A DNA stretch of 64,000 nucleotides from positions 1,240,001 through 1,304,000 of the forward strand of contig NZ_QPHM01000001.1 in NCBI RefSeq assembly GCF_003336245.1, written 5' to 3'. The number at the start of each line of letters is the position of its first letter. The stretch's first letter is position 1. Shown here one piece after another: positions 11,241 through 48,147 of the stretch. A program made the position numbers and the translations under genes. The DNA is from Haloplanus salinus (lineage in GTDB: Archaea; Halobacteriota; Halobacteria; Halobacteriales; Haloferacaceae). The notes under the pieces are model-generated. The model had not been told where the DNA came from. It made no database searches and saw only the letters and a list, made by a program, of their open reading frames with translations.

Positions 11241-11312
11241 GCCTGGGTAGCTTAGCGGTAAAGCGCGTCCTTGGTAAGGACGAGAGCCCGGGTTCAAATC
11301 CCGGCCTAGGCT
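11241..11312 (+). tRNA. tRNA-Thr (anticodon GGT), integration target
   Basis: A 72-nt cloverleaf: acceptor GCCTGGG/CCTAGGC; D arm GCTT..AAGC; anticodon stem CGTCC/GGACG with loop TTGGTAA (anticodon GGT); T arm CCGGG-TTCAAAT-CCCGG; discriminator T. A TATA-like CCTAAAG sits near 11,207-11,213. The 3' half is the left copy of the element's 44-bp direct repeat, so insertion left the tRNA intact. Confidence 0.97.
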
Positions 11313-11313
11313 T
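11270..11313 (+). repeat. Left attachment site (44-bp direct repeat in tRNA-Thr)
   Basis: The tRNA 3' half from the anticodon loop to one base past the discriminator is repeated exactly at 48,104-48,147. The integrase gene begins about 190 bp inside. This is the typical attL for a tRNA-targeting tyrosine recombinase. Confidence 0.95.
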
Positions 11314-11371: not shown

Positions 11372-11390
11372 TCAAGGACGAGACCCCGGT
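11372..11390 (+). repeat. Left inner att-like repeat (possible integrase arm site)
   Basis: TCAAGGACGAGACCCCGGT differs by one base from the copy at 47,929-47,947 near the other end, and both resemble part of the tRNA core. It lies about 60 bp inside attL. Integrase arm-type or accessory binding is an inference. Confidence 0.5.
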
Positions 11391-11503
11391 GTCAAAACAG
11401 GCACCCCGACGGCGTACAGCGATTACAGTAAATTGAATGGCTCTTTACATAATCCATTTAAAACTTTGCTACGAAGTGATCTAGATCTAGATAGAGGGAT
11501 ACG

Positions 11504-12637
11504 ATGACATCGACGGTTGACGACGACAACAAGGTACAGGGCATCATTCTTTTAACAGGTGAGGCCTCGAAATTGCTGAACCCGCGAGAGGAGATCGCGT
11601 ACAAGGAGCATCGCCGCGAATTAGCGGAGTGGATGCTTAACTTGGGTAAAGACCCGAGTAAAGCTGAGGGATACAGCTACAGTACTGCGAAGAACCGGAT
11701 GAACAAGTTGGACCTATTCTATCGCTGGGTCTGGAATGAGGAGCAACGATTTATCCAGGACCTGGGAATCGAGCACGCGGAGGCCTGGATGCGTGATTTA
11801 GCGAAGCGGGATTTGAAGGAGTCGACGAAGTGCCATTATCAGAAGTCGGTACAGACGTTGTTCAAGTGGAAACGTGAGGCCCGGAATAAGGATGTGGTGT
11901 GGGAGCCGAGTATTGAGTACAGCGACCCGTCTACTACTTACCAGCCTCGGGAGTATTTGACCCAGAGCGATCGGAAGAAGATGCGTGAGGCCGCCATGTC
12001 TTATGGGAGCGTCCCACATTACAACTCCTTGAGTCCAGAGGAACGGACTCGGTGGAAGAAGCACTTGGCCCAGAGACTTCAGAAGCCGATGGAGGAAGTG
12101 AATAAACAGGATTTCTTGGAGGCGAATTCGTTCAAGTATACCTCGATGATCTTTGTCGCGTTGGACGCAGGGTTCAGGCCTGTAGAGGTCAAGCGAGCGA
12201 ATATTCAGTGGTTCGACCCGGATAACGGAGTGCTTCGAATCCCGGAAGAAGAATCGAGTAAGTCCCGTGAGAACTGGATTGTCGCACTGAAACCGGAGAC
12301 CGTCTCAATCCTGAAGAAGTGGCAACAAGAACGCGAGACCATCTCCAAGTACGATGGCCGGGACGCATTGTGGCTCACACAGAAAGGCAACCGGTACAAC
12401 AAGGATAGCTTCCGGCGCTCAGTGTTTCACAAAATCGCTGAGGAGGCAGGCCTCGACTTAGAGAACCGGGACCTCACACCTTACAGCATACGGCACAGTA
12501 CAGCGACATATATTGCGAAGGAGGCGGACTTAGCGACTGCTGCGAAACAGTGCCGTCACAAATCCAAACAGACCACCCAGAAGTACGCCCACAGTTCGGT
12601 CGATAGGCAAAGCGACGCCATCAACAAAATAGACTAA
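11504..12637 (+). CDS. int: Tyrosine recombinase (integrase) next to attL
   Basis: A 377-residue site-specific recombinase. An N-terminal SAM-like core-binding domain (about 20-130, with KNRMNKLDLFYRWVW) precedes the catalytic domain. Visible catalytic landmarks are Arg in ALDAGFRPVEV (about 225), the HxxR-like box YSIRHSTATYIA (about 325-336), then CRHKSKQTTQKYAH with the final His and the Tyr nucleophile near 360. Its position right inside attL makes it the element's own integrase, acting on the 44-bp repeat. Start ATG 11504. The preceding 190 bp hold an att-like repeat and an AT-rich TTTAAAAC segment. Confidence 0.9.
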   Translation: MTSTVDDDNKVQGIILLTGEASKLLNPREEIAYKEHRRELAEWMLNLGKDPSKAEGYSYSTAKNRMNKLDLFYRWVWNEEQRFIQDLGIEHAEAWMRDLAKRDLKESTKCHYQKSVQTLFKWKREARNKDVVWEPSIEYSDPSTTYQPREYLTQSDRKKMREAAMSYGSVPHYNSLSPEERTRWKKHLAQRLQKPMEEVNKQDFLEANSFKYTSMIFVALDAGFRPVEVKRANIQWFDPDNGVLRIPEEESSKSRENWIVALKPETVSILKKWQQERETISKYDGRDALWLTQKGNRYNKDSFRRSVFHKIAEEAGLDLENRDLTPYSIRHSTATYIAKEADLATAAKQCRHKSKQTTQKYAHSSVDRQSDAINKID

Positions 12638-16094: not shown

Positions 16095-16520
16095 TTATCC
16101 TTCTTCCAATTTCTTCATTATCTGCCGCCGAAAAGCCTCCATGGATCGTTCTAACTGATCTACCGTCTCTTCCAGTTCCCGAAACTTTTTGACGAGTTCG
16201 CCGTGGCTCAAGTCTCCGTACGCCTCTGTTCTGTTCATCTCTTCGTTTTTGAGATATCGATGACCTTTCTCTGTCAACTTGGCTTTCTTCGGATGCTGGA
16301 ACACCCGTTTCTGTCCGTCGACGATTCTCTCTACCATTGTATCTGGTTTCTCTACGGTGATGAGGCCTAATTCCTCCAACTTCTCGAAGCAGTAGGAGAC
16401 GTGGTGGTTTTCGAGCGTGGTTTCTGCGGTGATCTTCTGGACGTCTTCTCGGCCTTCTTCGATGTGTTGGAGGACGATGTGGTCCTTGTCCCGTATCTTC
16501 TCGAATTCTTCCTCACTCAT
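16095..16520 (-). CDS. Winged-helix DNA-binding protein with coiled coil
   Basis: A 141-residue protein and the last gene of the secretion operon. Its ATG overlaps the VirD4-like stop (ATGA). The N-terminal part (ITAETTLENHHVSYCFEKL and EELGLITVEKPD) is a winged helix. The C-terminal part (GELVKKFRELEETVDQLERS) is a coiled coil suited to dimerisation. It is a candidate autoregulator binding the palindrome at 23,454; this is inference from operon membership. Confidence 0.7.
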   Translation of the reverse strand: MSEEEFEKIRDKDHIVLQHIEEGREDVQKITAETTLENHHVSYCFEKLEELGLITVEKPDTMVERIVDGQKRVFQHPKKAKLTEKGHRYLKNEEMNRTEAYGDLSHGELVKKFRELEETVDQLERSMEAFRRQIMKKLEEG

Positions 16521-18436
16521 TCTCCTTCGAGGAGGACACATTGCTGTTCGAGTTCTGTGCAGAATCCGTCTTCTTCTCGGTGTAGGCAGAAGGCCTCTAA
16601 GTCGTCACGACTGTTTGCATCGAGTTCGGGGCATTCTGGTTCGACTGCTTCGTCGTGGACTTTTAGATTGTCTCCCTGGATTTCGATTACTCGGTACTCG
16701 GCGTCTTCTAGATCCTCAAATTCAGTGAAGGCCTCGCCGTCTTCGTCTTTGTAGTAGCTGTATCCTCCGTTTTTGTCGTTGTATTCGTTGCCTCTCCGGT
16801 TTTTCGGGTCTTCGACGATGTTCTGTAGTTTGGCGGCTTTCCCCTGCTGGACGACGTAGAACACTTCCTTGTCCTGTTTTACTGCCCGTTTCAGGTTGCG
16901 TAGGACTTTTACAGGCCTTGAGAGTGTGCTGTGTTCTGCTTCCAGGTGTGCAATGTCGCCGTCCGGCAAGTGTACATGCCCATCTGGTTTGTCGTCGCCT
17001 GTATCCTGGTACAGTAGGTTGACCTGGAAGCCGCGTTCCTCTAGTTGTTTCTTTGCTTGTGCGAGGAGTTCTTGATGTTTGTCGCCGCCAGCGTTGTTCC
17101 CCTGTCCCAGGCTCTGTGAGGCCTTGACCTGAGACGTTCCCTGGGATACGGCGACCGTTCCCTGTTTCTTGAGGTTGTCGACGTTGCTGTGGTCGGCTTC
17201 CCAGGGCGGATAGGTGTCGAATAGGGTAGCGGAGTTGTGGCTTTTTTCGCTGGGTTTCTGGACTGCTGCTCGGTATTTTCCTAAGGCTTTGAGTTGGGTT
17301 TTCGAGAGGTCTTGGAACATTCCGGCGATCCGGGTTTCGTCTTCGCTGCCACTGGGGTTGAATGTGATTTTGGTGCGGCAGTTGTTGGTGACTGCTCTTC
17401 GCATATCCGTCGCTAACTGGTGGAGGTACTGTGAGGCGAGCCAGAGGCCTAGTCGGTATTCTCGTGCCTCTGCGAGGATCTTGGTGAAGTTGCTTCCTTC
17501 GCCGCCGAAGTTCTGGAGTTCGTCGACGTAGAGGAAAAACGGTGTTCGTTCTTCGGTGGGTTGGGTGACCCGGCTTTGTGCTGCTGCCCAGATCTTTGTG
17601 ATGACTATAGAGCCGACGAGCTGGGAGACGGTTTCTCCGACCTCTCCTTTCTGGATGTCGACGAGAAGGATTTTCCCGTTGTCGACGGCTTTTCGGAAGT
17701 CGACCCCAGACTCTTCGGGGCCGATCACTCTCCGGATGGTCGGATTCATTACGAAGTCGTTCAGCCGTCTTTGTAGGGGTTCCATCTCATAGCTTGTCAT
17801 GTCCTCTTTGACTCGGACCAGTTGTTCTCGGATGATCTCGTCCTCGGTCTGGTCGATGAGTTCTGTCAGACTGTCTTGGTTGACGACGCAGCGGAAGACG
17901 TCCAGTAGTGAACGACCGGCGTTTTGCTTGATGTTGAGGTCGAGGTGTGCCCGGAGCAGGGTTTCGAGGACTCGTCCGAACTGGTCGCCCCAGTTCTCGC
18001 TTTGGCGTTTGAAGAGGTCAATTAGGTCGGAGACGATGATCTCCTTCTGGTTTTCCTTCTGGGCCTCGGACATCTCCTCGGAGACGTGCGGTTCCAAGAC
18101 GTTGATCGGCGTTACTGGATCGTGCGCTGGATTGATGTAGACGACGTCGTCTTCTCGGTCTTCTGGAAGTTTGGCGAGGAATTCGTCTATGAGGCCTCCC
18201 TTGGGATTCACGATAGCGATGCCGTGGTCCTTCTCCGCGTCTTGTAATGCCACGTGCGTCAGCAGTTGGCTCTTTCCGTAGCCGGTCGGACCGATGTTCA
18301 GGACGTGGGTCAGCCTCTTTTCATCGCTGAGGCCTACGTTTTCCTCCACGCCGAGGTCGCTTTCGCGGCTGCCGAGGTATGTCGTGGTCAGGTTCTCTGT
18401 ACTCTGGATCAGGTTTTGGACTTCTTCGGAGTTCAT
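16517..18436 (-). CDS. virD4: VirD4/TraG-like coupling ATPase
   Basis: A 639-residue ATPase. Walker A GPTGYGKSQ lies near residues 48-56, Walker B FFLYVDELQNF near 297-307, then LWLASQYLHQL and TRIAGMF, as in TraG/TraD/VirD4 proteins. The C-terminal 200 residues form an extra domain unlike bacterial VirD4 and the usual N-terminal TM helices are missing, so membrane anchoring may come from partners. Role: bringing DNA or protein substrate to the secretion channel. Start overlaps the previous stop (ATGA); it is translationally coupled inside the operon. Confidence 0.85.
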   Translation of the reverse strand: MNSEEVQNLIQSTENLTTTYLGSRESDLGVEENVGLSDEKRLTHVLNIGPTGYGKSQLLTHVALQDAEKDHGIAIVNPKGGLIDEFLAKLPEDREDDVVYINPAHDPVTPINVLEPHVSEEMSEAQKENQKEIIVSDLIDLFKRQSENWGDQFGRVLETLLRAHLDLNIKQNAGRSLLDVFRCVVNQDSLTELIDQTEDEIIREQLVRVKEDMTSYEMEPLQRRLNDFVMNPTIRRVIGPEESGVDFRKAVDNGKILLVDIQKGEVGETVSQLVGSIVITKIWAAAQSRVTQPTEERTPFFLYVDELQNFGGEGSNFTKILAEAREYRLGLWLASQYLHQLATDMRRAVTNNCRTKITFNPSGSEDETRIAGMFQDLSKTQLKALGKYRAAVQKPSEKSHNSATLFDTYPPWEADHSNVDNLKKQGTVAVSQGTSQVKASQSLGQGNNAGGDKHQELLAQAKKQLEERGFQVNLLYQDTGDDKPDGHVHLPDGDIAHLEAEHSTLSRPVKVLRNLKRAVKQDKEVFYVVQQGKAAKLQNIVEDPKNRRGNEYNDKNGGYSYYKDEDGEAFTEFEDLEDAEYRVIEIQGDNLKVHDEAVEPECPELDANSRDDLEAFCLHREEDGFCTELEQQCVLLEGE

Positions 18437-19417: not shown

Positions 19418-21913
19418 TCAGGCCCCTTTGACAGCGTTGTAAGTGTCTATCAGGCTGAAGCCGATTCCGGCGAGGATGAACGGTAAAATGAATGTCAGTA
19501 GTTCAATTGATATTTCGCCGAATCCGAAGAGGTGTCCGACCTGATTTGCGATGTAGTCGGAGACGACAATTAGCCCTGATACGGGTATGAGAATGCTTCC
19601 GAATACTTTGCTTACATATAACAGGTCTTTAATCGATTGAGGTACAGTGATATTGACTTCCGGGATCTTGTTACTCCAGGTGCTGTCTTTTTTCTGGGTA
19701 TTGTATCGTGAACGGTTCTTGCTGTTATTTGAGAGTGAGGGCCAGGAGAAACTGGGGACAGAGGGCCGTTCTATCTGAGAAAAGGCCTGGGTGATGGAGG
19801 CCTTGATTTTCTCGAATAGTCCGGCTTCTTCAGTTGTGTTGCTGGAGTTGTAGTCGATATCAAAGCTGTTTGAAGTACTGGAGTTGTCGTCGGGAATTTC
19901 TCTGTTTTCGATGATCGAGGCTTCTACATCTGAGGCTTCTACCTTGATTTTGGATTCGAACTGGTTGCTGACGGAGAGGATTGCCTGGCTGTAATCCGTA
20001 GAGTCTTGGTCTCCTTTTGCGAGGTTGTACAGAGAGGTTTCTGCGACTGTGGAGAGTTGGAAGGCTTTGCTTGGTTGGTTGTCGGCCTTCTCGTGTGCGA
20101 ACAGGATTTTACATGGCACGTTTTTGAGGATGTCTTTTCCGTCTTCGGTTCGGTAGAAGTCGCTGATTGTCTGCGTGATGAGGTGGACTGCTGTGTTTGA
20201 GGAGCGTGCTTCCCGCACCAGGGTAGAGAGGATTGATGCTCCTTTCTCCTTCTTGAGGAGGCGGTGGGCTTCGTCTATGACGACGATGGTTTTACCGGTG
20301 TTTTCTTGTGCACCTTGGTATGCCTCTTCGACCGCTTCGACCAGAGTTTCTTCATCTTTGTTGACCGAGCCGTCGAATTCGTACCGTTGAACGGTGGCGT
20401 ATTCCTCTAAGAAGTTCTCTAGTTCGCCGTATTCCGGCTTGGGATCGACTATGTTGATGTGGAGGTCGTCGTAGATGAGAGCAGACCTGAGTAGGAGCAG
20501 TTTTGAGTGGAAGCTCTTGCCTGAGCCAGTGACGCCGGCGAGAACTGAGTGCCCGGCGTTCCATTTGAACCGATCCAGTACGACAGGTGCCTCTGTGGAT
20601 TCATCGACGCCGAAGAGAACACCGTTCTCGTCGATATTTGAGGCCTGGGTGAACGGGAAACCAGATGCAGCGCTTCCTGCAGGCATCAACTGATGCTCAC
20701 TGAGTTTGTCTTTGAGGCCTGGCGTCGTGGACTGGTAGGCCTGATCAGTGCGCAGCGTGGTATCCTGGTATTTGATGCCGAGGGTTTTCAGCCGGTTCTC
20801 TACCTTTCTTAGGGTGTCTTCACAGGCTTCTTTGTTTTCTCCGTAGGCTGTGATGTAGCAGCCGTACTCGACGGGGTTGTCGTCTTGATCGGCAAGCAGG
20901 TTCTGGAACCAGTCGAGGTCGTCTAGCAGTCGTTCCAGTTTTCTACTGCTGCCGTATCCTTTCCGGATCAGGGACTGATTCTCGGCCTCAGCCTTATTCT
21001 CCAGTTTCTGTAGTTTAGAGACTGTATCTGCCGAGGCCTTTGGGTAGAGTGTTTGAGTGATGTCGAGGAGGCCTTCGACTTGGAAGATTTGTGATATCCA
21101 GCTGAAGTCTACGTCTCGCGGGTGATCGGAGATGTACAGCGTTTTGCTGTATTCTCTTTCCTCTGAATCGCGGTGTTTGATGTGGCCGGCCCGGATTTCG
21201 GGAGTATCCTTGATTTCCCTGCTGTCTAACTCGGTTAATCTGTAGGCGGTGAGGCCTCCAGAGGTGAGGTGTTCCAGGATTTCTCCAACACGGTTTGACA
21301 GTTCGTTTCTGTCGCCGTTTTCGACCTTGACTTCTATGTAGTGCCGAGTCTTGCTGTTCCCGTCTTGCACCAGGCCTTCGCAGTGGCCGCGGTAGTCGTC
21401 TTGTAGTTTGTCGCCGTCTTCGAGGTTTTCGAAGTATTGGGCGAAGCTGAACGGGTCCTGAGTACTGTAGACTGTGATGGGGTGGTCGACAGATTGCAGG
21501 AGTTCCTGGTACAGTTTGTGGAGCGCGGCTTTCTCGTTGCCCGACTTCAGCTCCATGTTGACCGGATCGACCTCGATCAACGCGGATACTGAGTCACCTG
21601 CCGTCAGGAGGTCTTCCTCGATCTCCGGGGTTTCAACGCCGTTTCTGTTATTTAGCTTCCAGCGAAGGCCTTGGTACATGTTCTGGTCGAGGCTTCGACC
21701 GTAGGGCTTCCAGAGTGCCCAGGTTGCTCCGAGTCCTGCCGCAACTCCAGCGCCAGCGAATGCGGCGAGAGACGGATTCGAGGCCTGATACAGATACGCG
21801 AAGGCTGACGCGGAGGGGATTCCGAGCCGTGCCAGGTCTTTGGTGTCGAGCTTACCGAGCAGTTTCAGCGAGACCTGGTCGAGGTCCGTCGGCATTCGAA
21901 CCTTTTCACTCAT
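19418..21913 (-). CDS. virB4: VirB4/TraC-like secretion ATPase with membrane ends
   Basis: An 831-residue protein. Two hydrophobic segments near residues 33-75 look like a fused VirB3-like unit. A platform domain follows, then Walker A GVTGSGKSFHS near 460 and Walker B KTIVVIDEAHRLL near 541-553, and the QTISDFY segment. Two further TM helices lie at the C-terminus (about 755-825), unusual for VirB4. Role: energising the type IV channel. ATG overlaps the stop of the VirB6-like gene. Confidence 0.87.
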   Translation of the reverse strand: MSEKVRMPTDLDQVSLKLLGKLDTKDLARLGIPSASAFAYLYQASNPSLAAFAGAGVAAGLGATWALWKPYGRSLDQNMYQGLRWKLNNRNGVETPEIEEDLLTAGDSVSALIEVDPVNMELKSGNEKAALHKLYQELLQSVDHPITVYSTQDPFSFAQYFENLEDGDKLQDDYRGHCEGLVQDGNSKTRHYIEVKVENGDRNELSNRVGEILEHLTSGGLTAYRLTELDSREIKDTPEIRAGHIKHRDSEEREYSKTLYISDHPRDVDFSWISQIFQVEGLLDITQTLYPKASADTVSKLQKLENKAEAENQSLIRKGYGSSRKLERLLDDLDWFQNLLADQDDNPVEYGCYITAYGENKEACEDTLRKVENRLKTLGIKYQDTTLRTDQAYQSTTPGLKDKLSEHQLMPAGSAASGFPFTQASNIDENGVLFGVDESTEAPVVLDRFKWNAGHSVLAGVTGSGKSFHSKLLLLRSALIYDDLHINIVDPKPEYGELENFLEEYATVQRYEFDGSVNKDEETLVEAVEEAYQGAQENTGKTIVVIDEAHRLLKKEKGASILSTLVREARSSNTAVHLITQTISDFYRTEDGKDILKNVPCKILFAHEKADNQPSKAFQLSTVAETSLYNLAKGDQDSTDYSQAILSVSNQFESKIKVEASDVEASIIENREIPDDNSSTSNSFDIDYNSSNTTEEAGLFEKIKASITQAFSQIERPSVPSFSWPSLSNNSKNRSRYNTQKKDSTWSNKIPEVNITVPQSIKDLLYVSKVFGSILIPVSGLIVVSDYIANQVGHLFGFGEISIELLTFILPFILAGIGFSLIDTYNAVKGA

Positions 21914-28723: not shown

Positions 28724-29263
28724 ATGTATGTAGTAAGTACGATGGGAAGTGGTGATCTCGGTCGAGAGCTTGATTTAGACGCTGTTATCAAGTCGCTGGA
28801 AAACGAGTTTGATATTGAATCAAACCGGCATAGCGGCTCTATGGTTACTATTCGCTTAGAATCTGAGGGACCCGCTCTTACCCTCTACCGGACAGGAACA
28901 TACCAGATCCGGGGAACGGACAGTAGAAAGACGCTGTTCGAAGCTAATGAAGATCTTCTAGATGCTCTTCGCTCAGTTGGTGTGGAATTTTCTGAACCAG
29001 ATTTTGAACAAAATAACGCAGTCTTCCTTGAGGATTTTGAGACCAATATTCAATTAGAGACACTCTCATTACATCTCGGTTTGGAGGATGTAGAGTATGA
29101 GCCGGAACAGTTCCCTGGTGTCATCTACAGGCCACCGGAAATTGGCACCGTTAATCTGATTTTTTCCAGCGGCAAGACGATCATCAGCGGGACAGTAGAA
29201 AACGAGGTCGCTGAACAATCTTCGGAACACCTGCGAAAACAGCTTTCCACCCTTCCCACCTAA
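28724..29263 (+). CDS. tbp: Divergent TATA-binding protein, copy 1
   Basis: A 179-residue protein with two TBP repeats. The second repeat holds the family signature YEPEQFPGVIYRPPEIG and VNLIFSSGKTIISG, with the DNA-intercalating Phe positions kept. The first repeat is degenerate: HSGSMVTIRL and ALTLYRTGTYQIRG, where both expected Phe are missing (the second is Tyr). Expected role: basal transcription factor binding TATA boxes with TFB; the asymmetry may change promoter choice. It stands just upstream of hsdM. ATG 28,724; AT-rich sequence precedes it. Confidence 0.88.
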   Translation: MYVVSTMGSGDLGRELDLDAVIKSLENEFDIESNRHSGSMVTIRLESEGPALTLYRTGTYQIRGTDSRKTLFEANEDLLDALRSVGVEFSEPDFEQNNAVFLEDFETNIQLETLSLHLGLEDVEYEPEQFPGVIYRPPEIGTVNLIFSSGKTIISGTVENEVAEQSSEHLRKQLSTLPT

Positions 29264-35221: not shown

Positions 35222-35767
35222 ATGGTGGAAATTGTGAATGCTGTTGGATCGGGTTCTTTTGATAGAGAGTTTGATCTTGCTGTTGTTGCTGAGGATCTTG
35301 GTTCTGTTGCTGATTTTGATGAAGAGAAGTACCCAGGAGTGTATGTCCGGCTTTCTGAAGATTCGCCGTTGGCAACGATTTACAGAACTGGCAAATTCAT
35401 TGTTACAGGTGCGGATTCTATCGATGGATTGTATGATGTGAAAGAGGACTTAGTGGATATTCTAACAGAGCCCGGTATTATTCTCGAAGGAGATCTACAG
35501 TGGTTCCAGGTTCAGAACTTGGTCTGTACTACAGTTTTGGACGCTAATCTGAATTTGAATGCGTTAGCGATTGGGCTGGGTTTAGAACAGACTGAGTATG
35601 AGCCGGAGCAGTTCCCCGGTTTGATTTATCGGAATCCGGGTTTTGAGTGTGTGGCCCTGATTTTTTCGACGGGTAAAGCTGTGATCACTGGTAGTAATGA
35701 CTTGGAGGAGGCGGAGGCTGTAGTTTCTTTTCTGGAGGAGGAGTTATCGAGGCTTCAACTGAATTGA
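35222..35767 (+). CDS. tbp: Divergent TATA-binding protein, copy 2
   Basis: A 181-residue TBP paralogue. Second repeat: YEPEQFPGLIYRNPGFE and ALIFSTGKAVITG (Phe retained). First repeat: KYPGVYVRLSEDS and ATIYRTGKFIVTG, with Tyr at the two Phe positions. It follows hsdR by 8 bp, so it appears to be part of the restriction operon. Together with copy 1 it brackets hsdMSR. It probably recruits polymerase to a subset of element promoters (inference). Confidence 0.88.
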   Translation: MVEIVNAVGSGSFDREFDLAVVAEDLGSVADFDEEKYPGVYVRLSEDSPLATIYRTGKFIVTGADSIDGLYDVKEDLVDILTEPGIILEGDLQWFQVQNLVCTTVLDANLNLNALAIGLGLEQTEYEPEQFPGLIYRNPGFECVALIFSTGKAVITGSNDLEEAEAVVSFLEEELSRLQLN

Positions 35768-40286: not shown

Positions 40287-40317
40287 CTTATTTAAATCTT
40301 GGTCAGTAATATTGACC
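40287..40317 (+). promoter_or_regulatory. Promoter and operator of the MNT/HEPN pair
   Basis: A TATA element (CTTATTTAAATC, about 40,287-40,298) is followed by the inverted repeat GGTCA-7nt-TGACC (40,301-40,317), just before the ATG at 40,327. The arrangement suggests an autorepressed, nearly leaderless toxin-antitoxin operon. Confidence 0.55.
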
Positions 40318-40326
40318 GTGGACAGT

Positions 40327-40986
40327 ATGGTTGACCAAGATGGGCCTGGGGTCCTACTGCCAATACCGCTTGGAAAGGACAAAGTATTCCGAAACCAGGC
40401 AACAGACGACATCCTAGAACTACTCTACCGAAACCCCCATGAAGAGTTCGGAGTACGCCAACTCAGAGAGATAACAGGGCACGGCGCTCAAACCGTAGAT
40501 ACCGCCCTTACACTACTCGAACAACTCGACCTGATCCAAACCCGCAGAGAAGGAAACAAGAAACTCACATCCATAAACCGTGACCGCGTCCAGAAACCCG
40601 ATGACCCCATCCTTGAAATAAAACAGGAAGCATTCCGAAACCCAGTCAAGGCCTTCTCCGACAGGGTAAAAAAAGATCAAGGAGATAATCTCGTCGGTAT
40701 CCTGCTTTTCGGAAGTGTTGCCCGGGGAGAAGCAGACCGTGCCAGCGACATCGACATCCAAGTAATCGTAGAGGATGACTTGTTACAGTCTCGGAGAGAG
40801 ATACAGGACATAAGACAGGAAATGGAGGAATCTAAGTTCGGCGGTGAAAGATACGAGTTTCAGGTACTGGTTGAATCAGTTGAAACCGCTGAACAGTACG
40901 GGGACAAACTCCAAGAAATCTTTTCAGAGGCAGTCACGATTTACTCCACTGACCAACTTAAGGAACTCCGGCAGGTGATTCTGTAA
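40327..40986 (+). CDS. mntA: MNT-type nucleotidyltransferase with winged helix (antitoxin)
   Basis: A 219-residue protein. An N-terminal winged helix (GVRQLREITGHGAQTVDTAL) is followed by a minimal nucleotidyltransferase with GSVARGEADRASDIDIQVIV, the GSx10DxD catalytic motif. By analogy with MntA/HepT it would AMPylate the partner toxin and repress the operon. ATG 40,327 is chosen because the TATA box sits 29-40 nt upstream. Stop overlaps the partner ATG. Confidence 0.8.
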   Translation: MVDQDGPGVLLPIPLGKDKVFRNQATDDILELLYRNPHEEFGVRQLREITGHGAQTVDTALTLLEQLDLIQTRREGNKKLTSINRDRVQKPDDPILEIKQEAFRNPVKAFSDRVKKDQGDNLVGILLFGSVARGEADRASDIDIQVIVEDDLLQSRREIQDIRQEMEESKFGGERYEFQVLVESVETAEQYGDKLQEIFSEAVTIYSTDQLKELRQVIL

Positions 40987-41480
40987 TGGATAACAGCTCT
41001 ATTGAGGACAGTTTAGATGACGTCTTACAAGAGTTCCGTACCGGTTCCGGCCAACCTGAAACCGGCTTAGAGGTAAATGACACCGCACTTCTTCAACTCC
41101 GGAAATCCTGCCGAATGCTGGCAGCTGTAAAATCACTCCAAGAACAAAACGGCTACTACACCGTGATAATCGAGGCCTCCTTTGCATCAATCGAACGCAG
41201 CATACAGTTCTACCTTCAAGAGAAAAGCTACATCAAGGAAGACGAGTTCGTCGATCACAGAAAAGTCTACGAACTCGGGGAAAACGCAGCATTATACGGC
41301 GCTGACTTCAAGGAGAAGCTGATCCGTCTATGGGAGAACAACCGTTCACGTACCTACTACCGAGAAGGAATAGGGACAGAGAAGAGCGCGGCTTTATTGG
41401 TTGAACTCGCAGAGCAGATTCACAGCCATATCCTCCAACTAGCAGGAGAAAAGCACGAATGCATCTGCGACACCGCTTAA
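40986..41480 (+). CDS. HEPN-domain protein (toxin partner)
   Basis: A 164-residue helical protein, coupled to mntA by a one-base overlap. The segment YYTVIIEASFASIERSIQFY and the later NRSRTYYREGIGT region fit the HEPN fold; the usual R-x4-H RNase motif appears as R-x-R-x-YYR without a His. So catalytic activity is uncertain, or Tyr replaces His as a target for AMPylation. Ends with a Cys-containing tail (HECICDTA). Confidence 0.7.
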   Translation: MDNSSIEDSLDDVLQEFRTGSGQPETGLEVNDTALLQLRKSCRMLAAVKSLQEQNGYYTVIIEASFASIERSIQFYLQEKSYIKEDEFVDHRKVYELGENAALYGADFKEKLIRLWENNRSRTYYREGIGTEKSAALLVELAEQIHSHILQLAGEKHECICDTA

Positions 41481-43671: not shown

Positions 43672-44472
43672 GTGTTCAACAAATCAAAGAAACGCGGAGG
43701 AGTACTCCGTTCAGAAGCGTACCTGACACCGGATCACGTACCGGATGAACCAGTAGGCCGAGACCGCGAGATCGAGAGAATAGCGGAGGCAGTAAGGCCT
43801 CTTACGAAGAGAAGGAAGCCTGAGAACCTACTGGTCTACGGCCCAGCCGGCGTTGGGAAAACCACCTGCGTAAAACACGTCTTCCAACGGATGGAGGAAC
43901 AAACCACGGCGAAGGCTGTCTACATCAACGCCTGGCAATACAACACCAGGCCCTCACTCCTTACAGAACTCTTGATCCAACTCGGATATCCTGCACCGAG
44001 GAAAGGCAAACCTGTAGACGAACTGCTGTCCAAAATCCGTGAATGGCTGGACAAGAACCGCGGAGTCGCAGTAGCCATCGACGAATTCGACCAGCTACAG
44101 GAGAAGACAGAGGTCGTCTACGACCTTCAAATAGTGAACGAAGAAGCAGACAGTTCTCTCGGCGTTGTCATGGTCTCAAACCAGCCACCGGAAAGAGTAC
44201 AGCTAGATCCACGAAGCCAATCACGTTTGAACTGTCAAACACTCCGGTTCAACTCCTACAACGCACCACAACTACAGAAGATACTAGAGAAACGAGTCGA
44301 ACAGGCATTCCGACCAGGAACAGTCTCTGATGAGGTCATCGAAGAAATCGCTGAGCAAGTAGCAGACAAAGATGGAGACTGCCGAAAAGCCCTCAGCATA
44401 CTACTTAGGGCAGGCAGAAAAGCGGACCAACAAGGAAGCAATAAGATCGCTATGGAAGATTTAGAAATGTAA
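43672..44472 (+). CDS. Short Orc1/Cdc6-like AAA+ protein lacking the winged helix
   Basis: A 266-residue AAA+ protein: PVGRDREIERIAEAV box, Walker A YGPAGVGKTTCVKH near 59-72, Walker B VAVAIDEFDQLQ near 132-143, sensor-1 VMVSNQP, sensor-2 region DGDCRKALSILLRAG. The C-terminal DNA-binding winged helix of normal Cdc6 is absent, so it is about two-thirds of the usual length. It may load helicase together with, or regulate, the divergent full-length initiator. GTG start 43,672. Confidence 0.85.
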   Translation: MFNKSKKRGGVLRSEAYLTPDHVPDEPVGRDREIERIAEAVRPLTKRRKPENLLVYGPAGVGKTTCVKHVFQRMEEQTTAKAVYINAWQYNTRPSLLTELLIQLGYPAPRKGKPVDELLSKIREWLDKNRGVAVAIDEFDQLQEKTEVVYDLQIVNEEADSSLGVVMVSNQPPERVQLDPRSQSRLNCQTLRFNSYNAPQLQKILEKRVEQAFRPGTVSDEVIEEIAEQVADKDGDCRKALSILLRAGRKADQQGSNKIAMEDLEM

Positions 44473-44508: not shown

Positions 44509-45708
44509 ATGATATTAGATTCTGTATCTGGAGACCTCAAAAAAGGACAGTCAGCGATTGAATACTTGATGACGTATGGCTGGATGCTTCTAGTGGTTGC
44601 GATTGTTGGCGGCGCAGTTTTTAGCTTGGTTCAGAGTCAGGGTATTGAGGCTTCTAGTGGTTTTACTGGTGGTGATGTTGCAGTGGAGAATTTTGGTTTG
44701 TCTCAGGAAGGAAAGCTGGATATGCTTTTGAGGAATACCGCTGCTGATCCTCTGGAAGTTAAAGAGGTTACATTGAGTCAGGGTGGAGAAGAGTTCACTA
44801 CTGGTATCGATGAGGAGATTGATGTCGGTGATTCCAGTCCTGTTTCGAGCCTGGGCGCGGTTGAAAGTAGTGAGTCTAACAGTATAGATGTAGAGATAGT
44901 TTACGACGCTGGCGGTCTAGAGAATTTGACTGTTGAAGGCACAGTCTCCGGTAATTTGGATGTGACGATGAGCGGTGAGACTGAGACCAGTAATTGGGCC
45001 TTTGTCGATGTTTCAGAAGCCAGCTCTGATGTTGTTGATACTTCAGGTATGAGTGATTTTTACATCATGCAGTATGAGGCTTCTACGGCTAGTAATGAGT
45101 ATCACGGTGAGATAAGTAATAACTTGGATCATTCCCCGGTTTCTGTTAAGGGTAATGAGCCTTGGACAGATATCAATCAGAATGAGGCACGGACTGTCTG
45201 TCAAGATGCGGGTTATAGTCTACCGACAAACAAGCAGTGGCAGGCCTCGACTATGGCAGAGATAGGTAATAGTGGTTCTCAGCCCGGCGGTAACAACGAC
45301 AATGAAGGAGATCAAGGCGATGGGGAGGCAGCCAGTTTCGGTGATGCTGTTCTGACCGGAACCGGGCCTGAATCCTTCAGTAACGAACTCGGGATTTATG
45401 ATTTGAACGGTAACGTCTGGGAATGGACGAATACAACCGTTGACCAAGATGATCCTATTCACTTTGGTGGAACTAACGATAATGTAGATGCTTGGGATCC
45501 GAGCTATGCCGGTCCATCATCTCTAGCAAGTTCTGGTAACAGTGACTTTGGGAACGATTACTATTGGTCATCATCGAACGATAACCGCGCCGTTCTACGT
45601 GGCGGTTACTGGGACAATGGTGCCCAAGCCGGCGTGTTCTCCATGAACGTGTTCACCGCTCCGTCGCACTCGCGCGCGCGCATCGGGTTCCGGTGTTCTC
45701 TTTCCTGA
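44509..45708 (+). CDS. DGR target: pilin-type signal plus FGE/C-type-lectin variable protein
   Basis: A 399-residue surface protein. Residues about 10-45 are a class III signal (LKKGQSAIEYLMTYGWML onward), where a prepilin-type peptidase would cut after Gly and leave a hydrophobic assembly helix. A beta-rich stalk follows (50-170), then an FGE-sulfatase/C-type-lectin domain (YIMQYEAS, GYSLPTNKQW, GIYDLNGNVWEWTN). The last 40 residues, RGGYWDNGAQAGVFSMN to IGFRC, are the variable repeat. A TATA-like AAATTTAAAA lies 24 nt upstream. It is predicted to display a diversified ligand-binding tip on a filament or the cell surface. Confidence 0.9.
   Translation: MILDSVSGDLKKGQSAIEYLMTYGWMLLVVAIVGGAVFSLVQSQGIEASSGFTGGDVAVENFGLSQEGKLDMLLRNTAADPLEVKEVTLSQGGEEFTTGIDEEIDVGDSSPVSSLGAVESSESNSIDVEIVYDAGGLENLTVEGTVSGNLDVTMSGETETSNWAFVDVSEASSDVVDTSGMSDFYIMQYEASTASNEYHGEISNNLDHSPVSVKGNEPWTDINQNEARTVCQDAGYSLPTNKQWQASTMAEIGNSGSQPGGNNDNEGDQGDGEAASFGDAVLTGTGPESFSNELGIYDLNGNVWEWTNTTVDQDDPIHFGGTNDNVDAWDPSYAGPSSLASSGNSDFGNDYYWSSSNDNRAVLRGGYWDNGAQAGVFSMNVFTAPSHSRARIGFRCSLS
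45587..45696 (+). repeat. DGR variable repeat (VR)
   Basis: 110 bp at the 3' end of the target gene. It aligns without gaps to the template repeat at 46,542-46,651 with 12 differences, all at template adenines (6 to C, 4 to T... in total 5 C-type codon-1/2/3 changes and others to T or G), and none at the 85 non-adenine positions. Nine codons are affected, eight of them changing the residue (for example Asn to Tyr, Phe, Thr, His and Arg). The last 15 bases are identical and probably act as the homing-initiation sequence. Confidence 0.95.
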
Positions 45709-45808
45709 TTGCTGGAGGCTGGTTTGCTATGAGATTTAACTGTTTTCCGGCTGTGAGAGAAGTTAATTTGGCAAAACTTTCGATCTTGGGAGCTGAGGCC
45801 GATCTTTG

Positions 45809-46180
45809 ATGGCGGAGATGGATTTTACCGGTTTGCAGGCGTATGAGGAAGTGTCTCCAGCAGTAGTGAATGGTTTGAAACTGTTGAGGGATTTGGATGA
45901 TTATGATACTTACTGGGATTTTATTTTGAAAGGTCTGAGGCGGGACCTGGCTGAGTCTCTCCCGCTTCTAGCTGATGGGTATAACAGGTATCATTATGAT
46001 GATAAGGCGGAGGCATATAGGGAGGCAAGGAGCCGTTTGTCGAGAAGTCAGTCTTGTTTTTTGATTTTGAAGGATGTCGGTGTTTTGAACACTAATGATG
46101 TTTCTCCGATCTGTGAGGGTTTGGAGGGCGGTATTGGCCGTCTCAATGGTTTGATCAGTCGTATGGAGGATGATGGGTGA
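45809..46180 (+). CDS. avd: Avd-like accessory protein, copy 1
   Basis: A 123-residue helical protein (YEEVSPAVVNGLKLLRDLDD, YREARSRLSRSQSCFLILKD, ICEGLEGGIGRLNGLISRME). Size, helix pattern and position between target and template fit the accessory variability determinant family, a basic helical bundle that binds the reverse transcriptase and template RNA. It is more divergent than copy 2. ATG 45,809; the stop overlaps the start of copy 2. Confidence 0.65.
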   Translation: MAEMDFTGLQAYEEVSPAVVNGLKLLRDLDDYDTYWDFILKGLRRDLAESLPLLADGYNRYHYDDKAEAYREARSRLSRSQSCFLILKDVGVLNTNDVSPICEGLEGGIGRLNGLISRMEDDG

Positions 46181-46512
46181 TGCGTGATTTGAAGTTGTTT
46201 CAGAGGGGTTATGATTTCTACGAGTTTGTGTATCCGACGTTGAAGAATTTTCCGCAGAGTGAGCGTTTTGTAATGGTTCAGAAAATTCAGAAGGTGTACT
46301 TGGAGTTTCTGTCGGAGGTCATCTCTGCCCGCAAATCCAGCAATACTCTGCATCATTTGAGGAGGGCGGATCGGGAGTTGGAGAAGACGAAGATCTTCTT
46401 CCGTCTGTCCCGTGACCTTGGTTTTATCTCGGCTGGACAGCATGAGGATATCTCTGAGAAACTGGTGGAGATGGGTAAGATGCTCGGGGGTTGGATTGAC
46501 AGTGAAAAATGA
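46180..46512 (+). CDS. avd: Avd accessory protein, copy 2
   Basis: A 110-residue four-helix-bundle protein with clear Avd landmarks: FPQSERFVMVQKIQKVYLEF, LHHLRRADRELEKTKIFFRL and the C-terminal GKMLGGWIDSEK. In bacterial DGRs Avd forms a pentamer that binds the reverse transcriptase and nucleic acid. Starts at ATG 46,180 (or GTG 46,177) overlapping the previous stop. Ends 29 bp before the template repeat. Confidence 0.88.
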   Translation: MRDLKLFQRGYDFYEFVYPTLKNFPQSERFVMVQKIQKVYLEFLSEVISARKSSNTLHHLRRADRELEKTKIFFRLSRDLGFISAGQHEDISEKLVEMGKMLGGWIDSEK

Positions 46513-46541
46513 TATTAGGGCCGGTACCTTGCTCGGGACCT

Positions 46542-46651
46542 GCGCCGTTCAACGTGGCGGTAACTGGGACAATGGTGCACAAGCCGGCGTGTTCTCCATG
46601 AACGTGAACAACGCTCCGTCGAACTCGAACACGAACATCGGGTTCCGGTGT
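46542..46651 (+). repeat. DGR template repeat (TR)
   Basis: 110 bp between the second avd gene and the reverse transcriptase. It carries 25 adenines, 12 of which are changed in the VR. It contains six in-frame AAC codons at the positions that vary most, the hallmark of DGR templates since AAC can give many residues by A substitution. GC-rich compared with the surrounding cassette. Confidence 0.95.
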
Positions 46652-46831
46652 CCTCCTTCGAGGCAAGAGCTTAAGGGCCAAACAAGGCTCTTAGGACAAA
46701 GCCGAATGGAGGGAGAACTTCGGTATCGGCCTGCCCAACCGACGAAAAATGCGGAGGCAAAAATCTTTCAGAGTGGGTGACAGCCAGTAACGCTGTGTCG
46801 AAAGCTGAAGCCCGCCACATACAATTTTGAG
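46652..46831 (+). ncRNA. Putative DGR RNA spacer downstream of TR
   Basis: 180 bp between TR and the reverse transcriptase start with no coding frame of interest. In the Bordetella DGR the equivalent RNA segment is needed to prime cDNA synthesis. An inverted repeat AAGAGC/GCTCTT (46,665-46,670 and 46,687-46,692) lies just after the TR. Its role here is inferred from position. Confidence 0.5.
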
Positions 46832-47928: not shown

Positions 47929-47947
47929 TCAAGGACGAGAGCCCGGT
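47929..47947 (+). repeat. Right inner att-like repeat (possible integrase arm site)
   Basis: TCAAGGACGAGAGCCCGGT differs by one base from the copy at 11,372-11,390 and shares 16 bases with the tRNA core. It lies about 157 bp inside attR, in the same orientation. The surrounding 276 bp (47,828-48,103) hold no convincing gene. Confidence 0.5.
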
Positions 47948-48103: not shown

Positions 48104-48147
48104 CTTGGTAAGGACGAGAGCCCGGGTTCAAATCCCGGCCTAGGCTT
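48104..48147 (+). repeat. Right attachment site (44-bp direct repeat)
   Basis: An exact copy of the tRNA-Thr 3' half at 11,270-11,313, without a 5' half. It marks the right end of the element; GC-rich chromosomal sequence follows at once. Confidence 0.95.

Follow-up and report, generated by a model that had tools for sequence, protein, structure and literature searches.

A complete diversity-generating retroelement of nanohaloarchaeal type in the cargo slot of a haloarchaeal integrative element

The cassette, its repeats and its products

Within the window, i.e. the whole 64-kb stretch of Haloplanus salinus DNA analyzed here, we found a cassette in which a target gene carrying a variable repeat (VR) is followed by two Avd-type genes, a template repeat (TR), a structured spacer and a reverse transcriptase (RT) gene. 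All four genes are intact. The features of the cassette are as follows (position, strand, identity):

44509-45708, +, target of the diversity-generating retroelement (DGR), pilin-like with a C-terminal FGE/C-type-lectin-type domain (Pfam FGE-sulfatase, 1e-15)
44542-44622, +, class III signal and hydrophobic helix of the target (KKG/QSAIEYLMTYGWMLLVVAIVGGAVF), read from the sequence
45587-45696, +, VR
45697-45705, +, IMH-like VR-side end of the homology
45809-46180, +, Avd1, an Avd-like helical protein
46177-46512, +, Avd2, a canonical Avd (Pfam bAvd PF22296, 2e-24; PHROG Avd, 6.2e-24)
46542-46651, +, TR
46652-46815, +, structured spacer of the DGR RNA, 3' of the TR, with four helices
46832-47827, +, DGR RT

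Alignment of the TR with the VR was ungapped and revealed differences at 12 of 110 positions, all 12 at adenines of the TR, which has 25 adenines; in their place the VR has T, C or G. Were 12 mismatches placed at random, they would all land on these adenines with a probability of about 1.5e-9. Nine codons of the VR are touched and eight residues altered, with six AAC codons among them. The initial annotation had arrived at the same counts of mismatches and codons, with the other 85 positions identical, and the computed alignment agreed, no non-adenine mismatch being detected within the 110-bp repeat. A search with the adenines left free returned a single VR and a single TR in the entire 3.55-Mb genome, and no further TR-like copy was present at a match of at least 60% within the window. 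The homology extends about 9 bp beyond the 3' end of the repeat, reading TCTCTTTCC on the VR side and CCTCCTTCG on the TR side (46652-46660). This stretch looks like an IMH/IMH* boundary, as differences of the same kind are seen at the two nanohaloarchaeal loci described below, M3_22 and G408, and are consistent across the three. Neither the window nor M3_22 showed a hairpin just 3' of the VR of the kind present in BPP-1.

The RT carries YMDD and IGTLYSQ motifs, read off the sequence, and matches both phrog_1423 (1.2e-124) and the structure of the BPP-1 DGR RT (8ub7; 2.9e-57), placing it in the DGR class; assignment to the group II intron type was rejected. The predicted model of Avd1 resembles S23/IVP and Avd bundles, with TM-scores of 0.61-0.65 on the query against 4dwl and weak Foldseek E-values. 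Given that comparison of the Avd1 and Avd2 profiles gave an unconvincing match, the Avd-like label of Avd1 rests on its fold and position, and Avd1 is likely a second Avd.

The FGE-sulfatase domain of the target spans residues 177-396 of 399 and the VR lies at its C-terminal end. The class III signal and the hydrophobic helix suggest that the N terminus is type IV pilin-like; no Pfam pilin family matched the target. The predicted structure of the target is poor except for a beta domain at residues 57-147, and the FGE domain was not modelled reliably. In the spacer, 7 of 28 base pairs are changed on both sides among the three loci, a covariation that, coming from three sequences, is supportive rather than conclusive of the helices. 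Rfam gave no match in the DGR RNA region except for a tRNA end. The cassette is a genuine, complete DGR, as the initial annotation had proposed from the RT and Avd genes alongside the repeats: the adenine-specific TR/VR pair, the DGR-class RT, Avd, the RNA, a gene whose 3' end, encoding a C-type-lectin-type domain, holds the VR, and what looks like an IMH/IMH* boundary are all in place.

The integrative element and its cargo slot

The DGR lies in an integrative element of 36.9 kb, recognized by its 44-bp perfect direct repeats, low G+C, empty site in congeners and sister elements. Its main features are:

11270-48147, no strand, integrative element with the DGR
11270-11313, +, attL, the 3' part of tRNA-Thr(GGT), 44-bp repeat
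11504-12637, +, tyrosine integrase of the element (Pfam Phage_integrase, 2.9e-21; 70% identical in G198)
16517-18436, -, VirD4/TraD-like coupling ATPase (Pfam TrwB_AAD_bind and TraG-D_C; 88-89% in G239 and G154)
19418-21913, -, VirB4/TraC-like ATPase (Pfam AAA_10, P-loop_TraG and CagE_TrbE_VirB; 61-69% in G154 and G239)
43672-44472, +, Cdc6/Orc-like gene (cdc6a), the last backbone gene before the cargo slot (Cdc6_lid, 4.4e-17; 75% in G275, at the same place)
48104-48147, +, attR, 44-bp repeat

The integrase, the att repeats, an empty site and the VirB4- and VirD4-type ATPases that mark an ICE are all present, the empty site being the joined tRNA-Thr site of two congeners, G239 and G420. No relaxase was recognized by Pfam among the portion of the element genes scanned. 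The element also carries two Cdc6-like genes and a set of type I restriction-modification genes. Just inside each of its ends, a further partial copy of the att core was seen (47931-47946 and 11374-11396), possibly integrase arm sites or remains of an earlier integration. Two TBP-like genes (28724-29263, Pfam TBP 2.9e-27; and 35222-35767) lie on either side of the type I restriction-modification genes, and both resemble each other's relative in G334. At 40312-41480, a nucleotidyltransferase gene with a Pfam match and a small downstream partner with none look like a toxin-antitoxin pair of the MNT-HEPN type.

The backbone genes are mostly 60-89% identical to those of elements in other Halobacteria, which share the gene order and the tRNA-Thr site. 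The position of cdc6a at this end is shared by all six sister elements that were read. In G275, G293, G126 and G434, between 0.25 and 2.4 kb of variable cargo separates cdc6a from a tRNA-Thr att that matches 41-43 of the 44 bases of attR; G334 instead has a tRNA-Glu gene 2.4 kb past cdc6a, and in G112 an att beyond cdc6a was looked for and not found. The DGR of the window occupies the slot between cdc6a and attR. The four elements have backbone, gene order and tRNA-Thr att in common with that of the window, whereas their slot holds other genes or nothing. Beside the att, all four of these slots (L112, L115, L116 and L117) have a short stretch of similar sequence, such as ERLLARCFKGVRDNT.

A trace of the element was also seen outside Halobacteria. 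A nanohaloarchaeal contig (G405:C1; L082, 2405-3588) carries a remnant of the coupling ATPase gene, 77% identical, with an adjoining winged-helix gene, and this remnant sits among housekeeping genes, indicating that the element family has been in both haloarchaea and nanohaloarchaea.

Relatives, activity and origin of the cassette

No RT of the window type was detected in 390 other sampled genomes of Halobacteria beyond four partial matches of about 30% identity, and the DGR target, searched for alone, was found in none of them; at a threshold of 1e-20 the 169 other genomes of the family yielded no RT. In IMG/VR, scanned with the RT, VirB4, Avd1 and an RT alignment, no close relative turned up, the single RT recovered being a distant one (27%). 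The whole cassette was found in two of 28 nanohaloarchaeal genomes, G391 (M3_22; CP046106.1) and G408, with identities to the window of 91 and 86% for Avd1, 85 and 83% for Avd2, 77 and 71% for the RT and 53 and 50% for the target, respectively. The pilin-like N terminus of the target has relatives across the 28 genomes. The cassette of M3_22 adjoins prefoldin- and FtsY-like genes (neighbors identified by reading). A target-like gene with an FGE domain lies beside such genes, as in M3_22, in G418 (L045; G418:C7, 1495-2520), a genome in which a DGR RT match was searched for and none found. M3_22 has been placed in or near Ca. Nanohalovita, and nanohaloarchaea have been described as obligately associated with haloarchaea (PMC10266531). 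The initial annotation had put the DGR on a haloarchaeal element of conjugative type; this holds for the element, while the cassette itself proved to be of nanohaloarchaeal (DPANN) affinity. The ancestry of the locus is split, with a haloarchaeal backbone and a nanohaloarchaeal-type cassette.

Archaeal DGRs have been reported from the virus ANMV-1 and Nanoarchaeota (PMC4372165) and from DPANN and Asgard MAGs (PMC7495880), and in the text of a global DGR survey haloarchaea appear in a reference title only (PMC8144416). No report of a haloarchaeal or nanohaloarchaeal DGR was found in the literature searched, and an earlier listing elsewhere is possible. The impression of novelty that the locus had first given was borne out among the Halobacteria genomes and the literature searched.

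We consider it highly probable that the locus is a complete DGR with a pilin-like target and a nanohaloarchaeal ancestry, which rides on a haloarchaeal VirB4/VirD4 integrative element as the cargo of the slot next to attR. Following the DGR model, the TR and the structured spacer would be transcribed, the RT together with one or both Avd-family proteins would copy the TR into cDNA while misreading adenines, and the cDNA, guided by the IMH, would replace the VR at the 3' end of the target gene. The product would be a type IV pilin-like protein displaying variable residues on its C-terminal C-type-lectin-type domain, most likely for adhesion at the cell surface or as the tip that effects recognition. 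Such a putative variable adhesive pilin may be assembled into a pilus and bind a ligand.

The two nanohaloarchaeal loci, inspected for the same DGR with other VRs, carry independently mutated ones: in M3_22 all 18 mismatches inside the repeat are at A, and in G408 16 of 17 are at TR adenines, which shows the same machinery at work elsewhere. G408 also has a second target (L081; G408:C1, 9169-10416) about 105 kb from its sole DGR RT and TR, in whose VR 19 of the 21 mismatches fall on adenines of the TR; the DGR of G408 seems to act on this target in trans. At every non-adenine site of the repeat where the TR of M3_22 differs, the VR of the window has the base of its own TR. Furthermore, the divergence of the RT between the window and M3_22 is mostly silent (pN 0.13, pS 0.76). 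The last two features, with the intact genes, support the earlier description of the DGR as active-looking; none of the observations dates its activity to the haloarchaeal host, in which it may be active at present. To another possibility we give a minor share, namely that the DGR is genuine but acquired its VR mutations before transfer and is now a silent or inactive passenger in this host. A single VR sequence is known, and other elements of the family manage without a DGR; against this reading stand the four intact genes, an RT in which changes are mostly silent and a VR that agrees with its TR, itself diverged, wherever the TR has a base other than adenine.

As to where the cassette came from, silent sites are nearly saturated against M3_22, so neither of the sampled nanohaloarchaeal genomes is a recent donor. 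In the RT tree, the RTs of the window and of the two nanohaloarchaea group with full support, with that of the window as sister to the other two and not nested among them. Because the tree puts the window RT beside and not inside the nanohaloarchaeal RTs, the direction of transfer is judged from where the target family occurs; on that basis, the cassette would have passed from a nanohaloarchaeon to the haloarchaeal element. The opposite course, by which a cassette native to the shared element family moved from elements into nanohaloarchaeal chromosomes, would suit this sister position, the presence of the cassette in so few nanohaloarchaea (2 of 28) and the entry of the element family into them. 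We regard it as improbable given that relatives of the pilin-type target are found across nanohaloarchaea and in none of the other Halobacteria searched, that the M3_22 cassette stands beside prefoldin- and FtsY-like genes, and that in G418, which gave no RT match, a target-like gene occupies the corresponding place.

Very improbable is a nanohaloarchaeal origin of the whole element with only recent arrival in haloarchaea. The G+C of the element (about 48%, versus 65-70% across most of the flanks), a lysine use that differs from that of the host and the coupling-gene remnant of G405:C1 would all fit such an origin. Against it, many Halobacteria have relatives of the backbone, 60-89% identical, that keep its gene order and sit at tRNA-Thr, and a search of the 28 nanohaloarchaeal genomes for VirB4 turned up no more than a weak partial match. 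Finally, since the cassette is of a type seen in nanohaloarchaea, and these grow together with haloarchaea, one may think of a chimeric assembly or of contaminating DNA from a nanohaloarchaeon in co-culture. This is scarcely credible and was rejected on junction evidence, as the cassette lies within a contig of 2.97 Mb, in an element with perfect att repeats and between cdc6a and attR, where sister elements hold other cargo.

Meaning and known systems

What sets this DGR apart is the class of its host, the vehicle that carries it, a pilin-like target and an ancestry of symbiont type. As a tentative suggestion that we hold to be possible rather than probable, nanohaloarchaea may use a DGR-varied pilin to recognize their haloarchaeal hosts, and a mobile element of host type may have captured it. 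The self-varying recognition tip would now serve the element or, on loan, its host, either to recognize mates during transfer or to deal with the symbiont, and the element family would pass between symbiont and host. The locus extends DGRs to Halobacteria, which are genetically tractable, so that activity of an archaeal DGR could be tested in culture. It further shows that a DPANN symbiont lineage has a complete diversity-generating system in common with a mobile element from the group of its hosts, and makes variable pilin tips candidate recognition factors in the symbiosis between nanohaloarchaea and haloarchaea.

The Legionella DGR reportedly lies on a horizontally acquired island and diversifies a variable surface lipoprotein; it shares with the DGR of the window a cellular surface target and residence on an acquired genomic element, differs in being bacterial and in its lipoprotein anchor, and is not known to link a symbiont group with its host group. 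The DGR of BPP-1 (mtd, avd, TR, brt) has the order target-avd-TR-RT, the RT and Avd families and the adenine-specific mutation seen in the window, but its target is a phage tail fiber, it has one Avd where the window has one gene more, and its RT is 34% identical to that of the window. The DGRs of the ANMV-1 virus and of Nanoarchaeota (PMC4372165) are archaeal as well, and the ANMV-1 RT is 38.5% identical to the window RT; unlike the DGR of the window, they serve viral tail fibers or orphan targets in other archaea and stand without an integrative element. The DGRs of the nanohaloarchaea M3_22 and G408 have the same gene order, two Avd-type genes, a homologous target, TR, RNA spacer and RT, but whereas they are chromosomal, and that of G408 has a second target in trans, the DGR of the window resides on a haloarchaeal integrative element.
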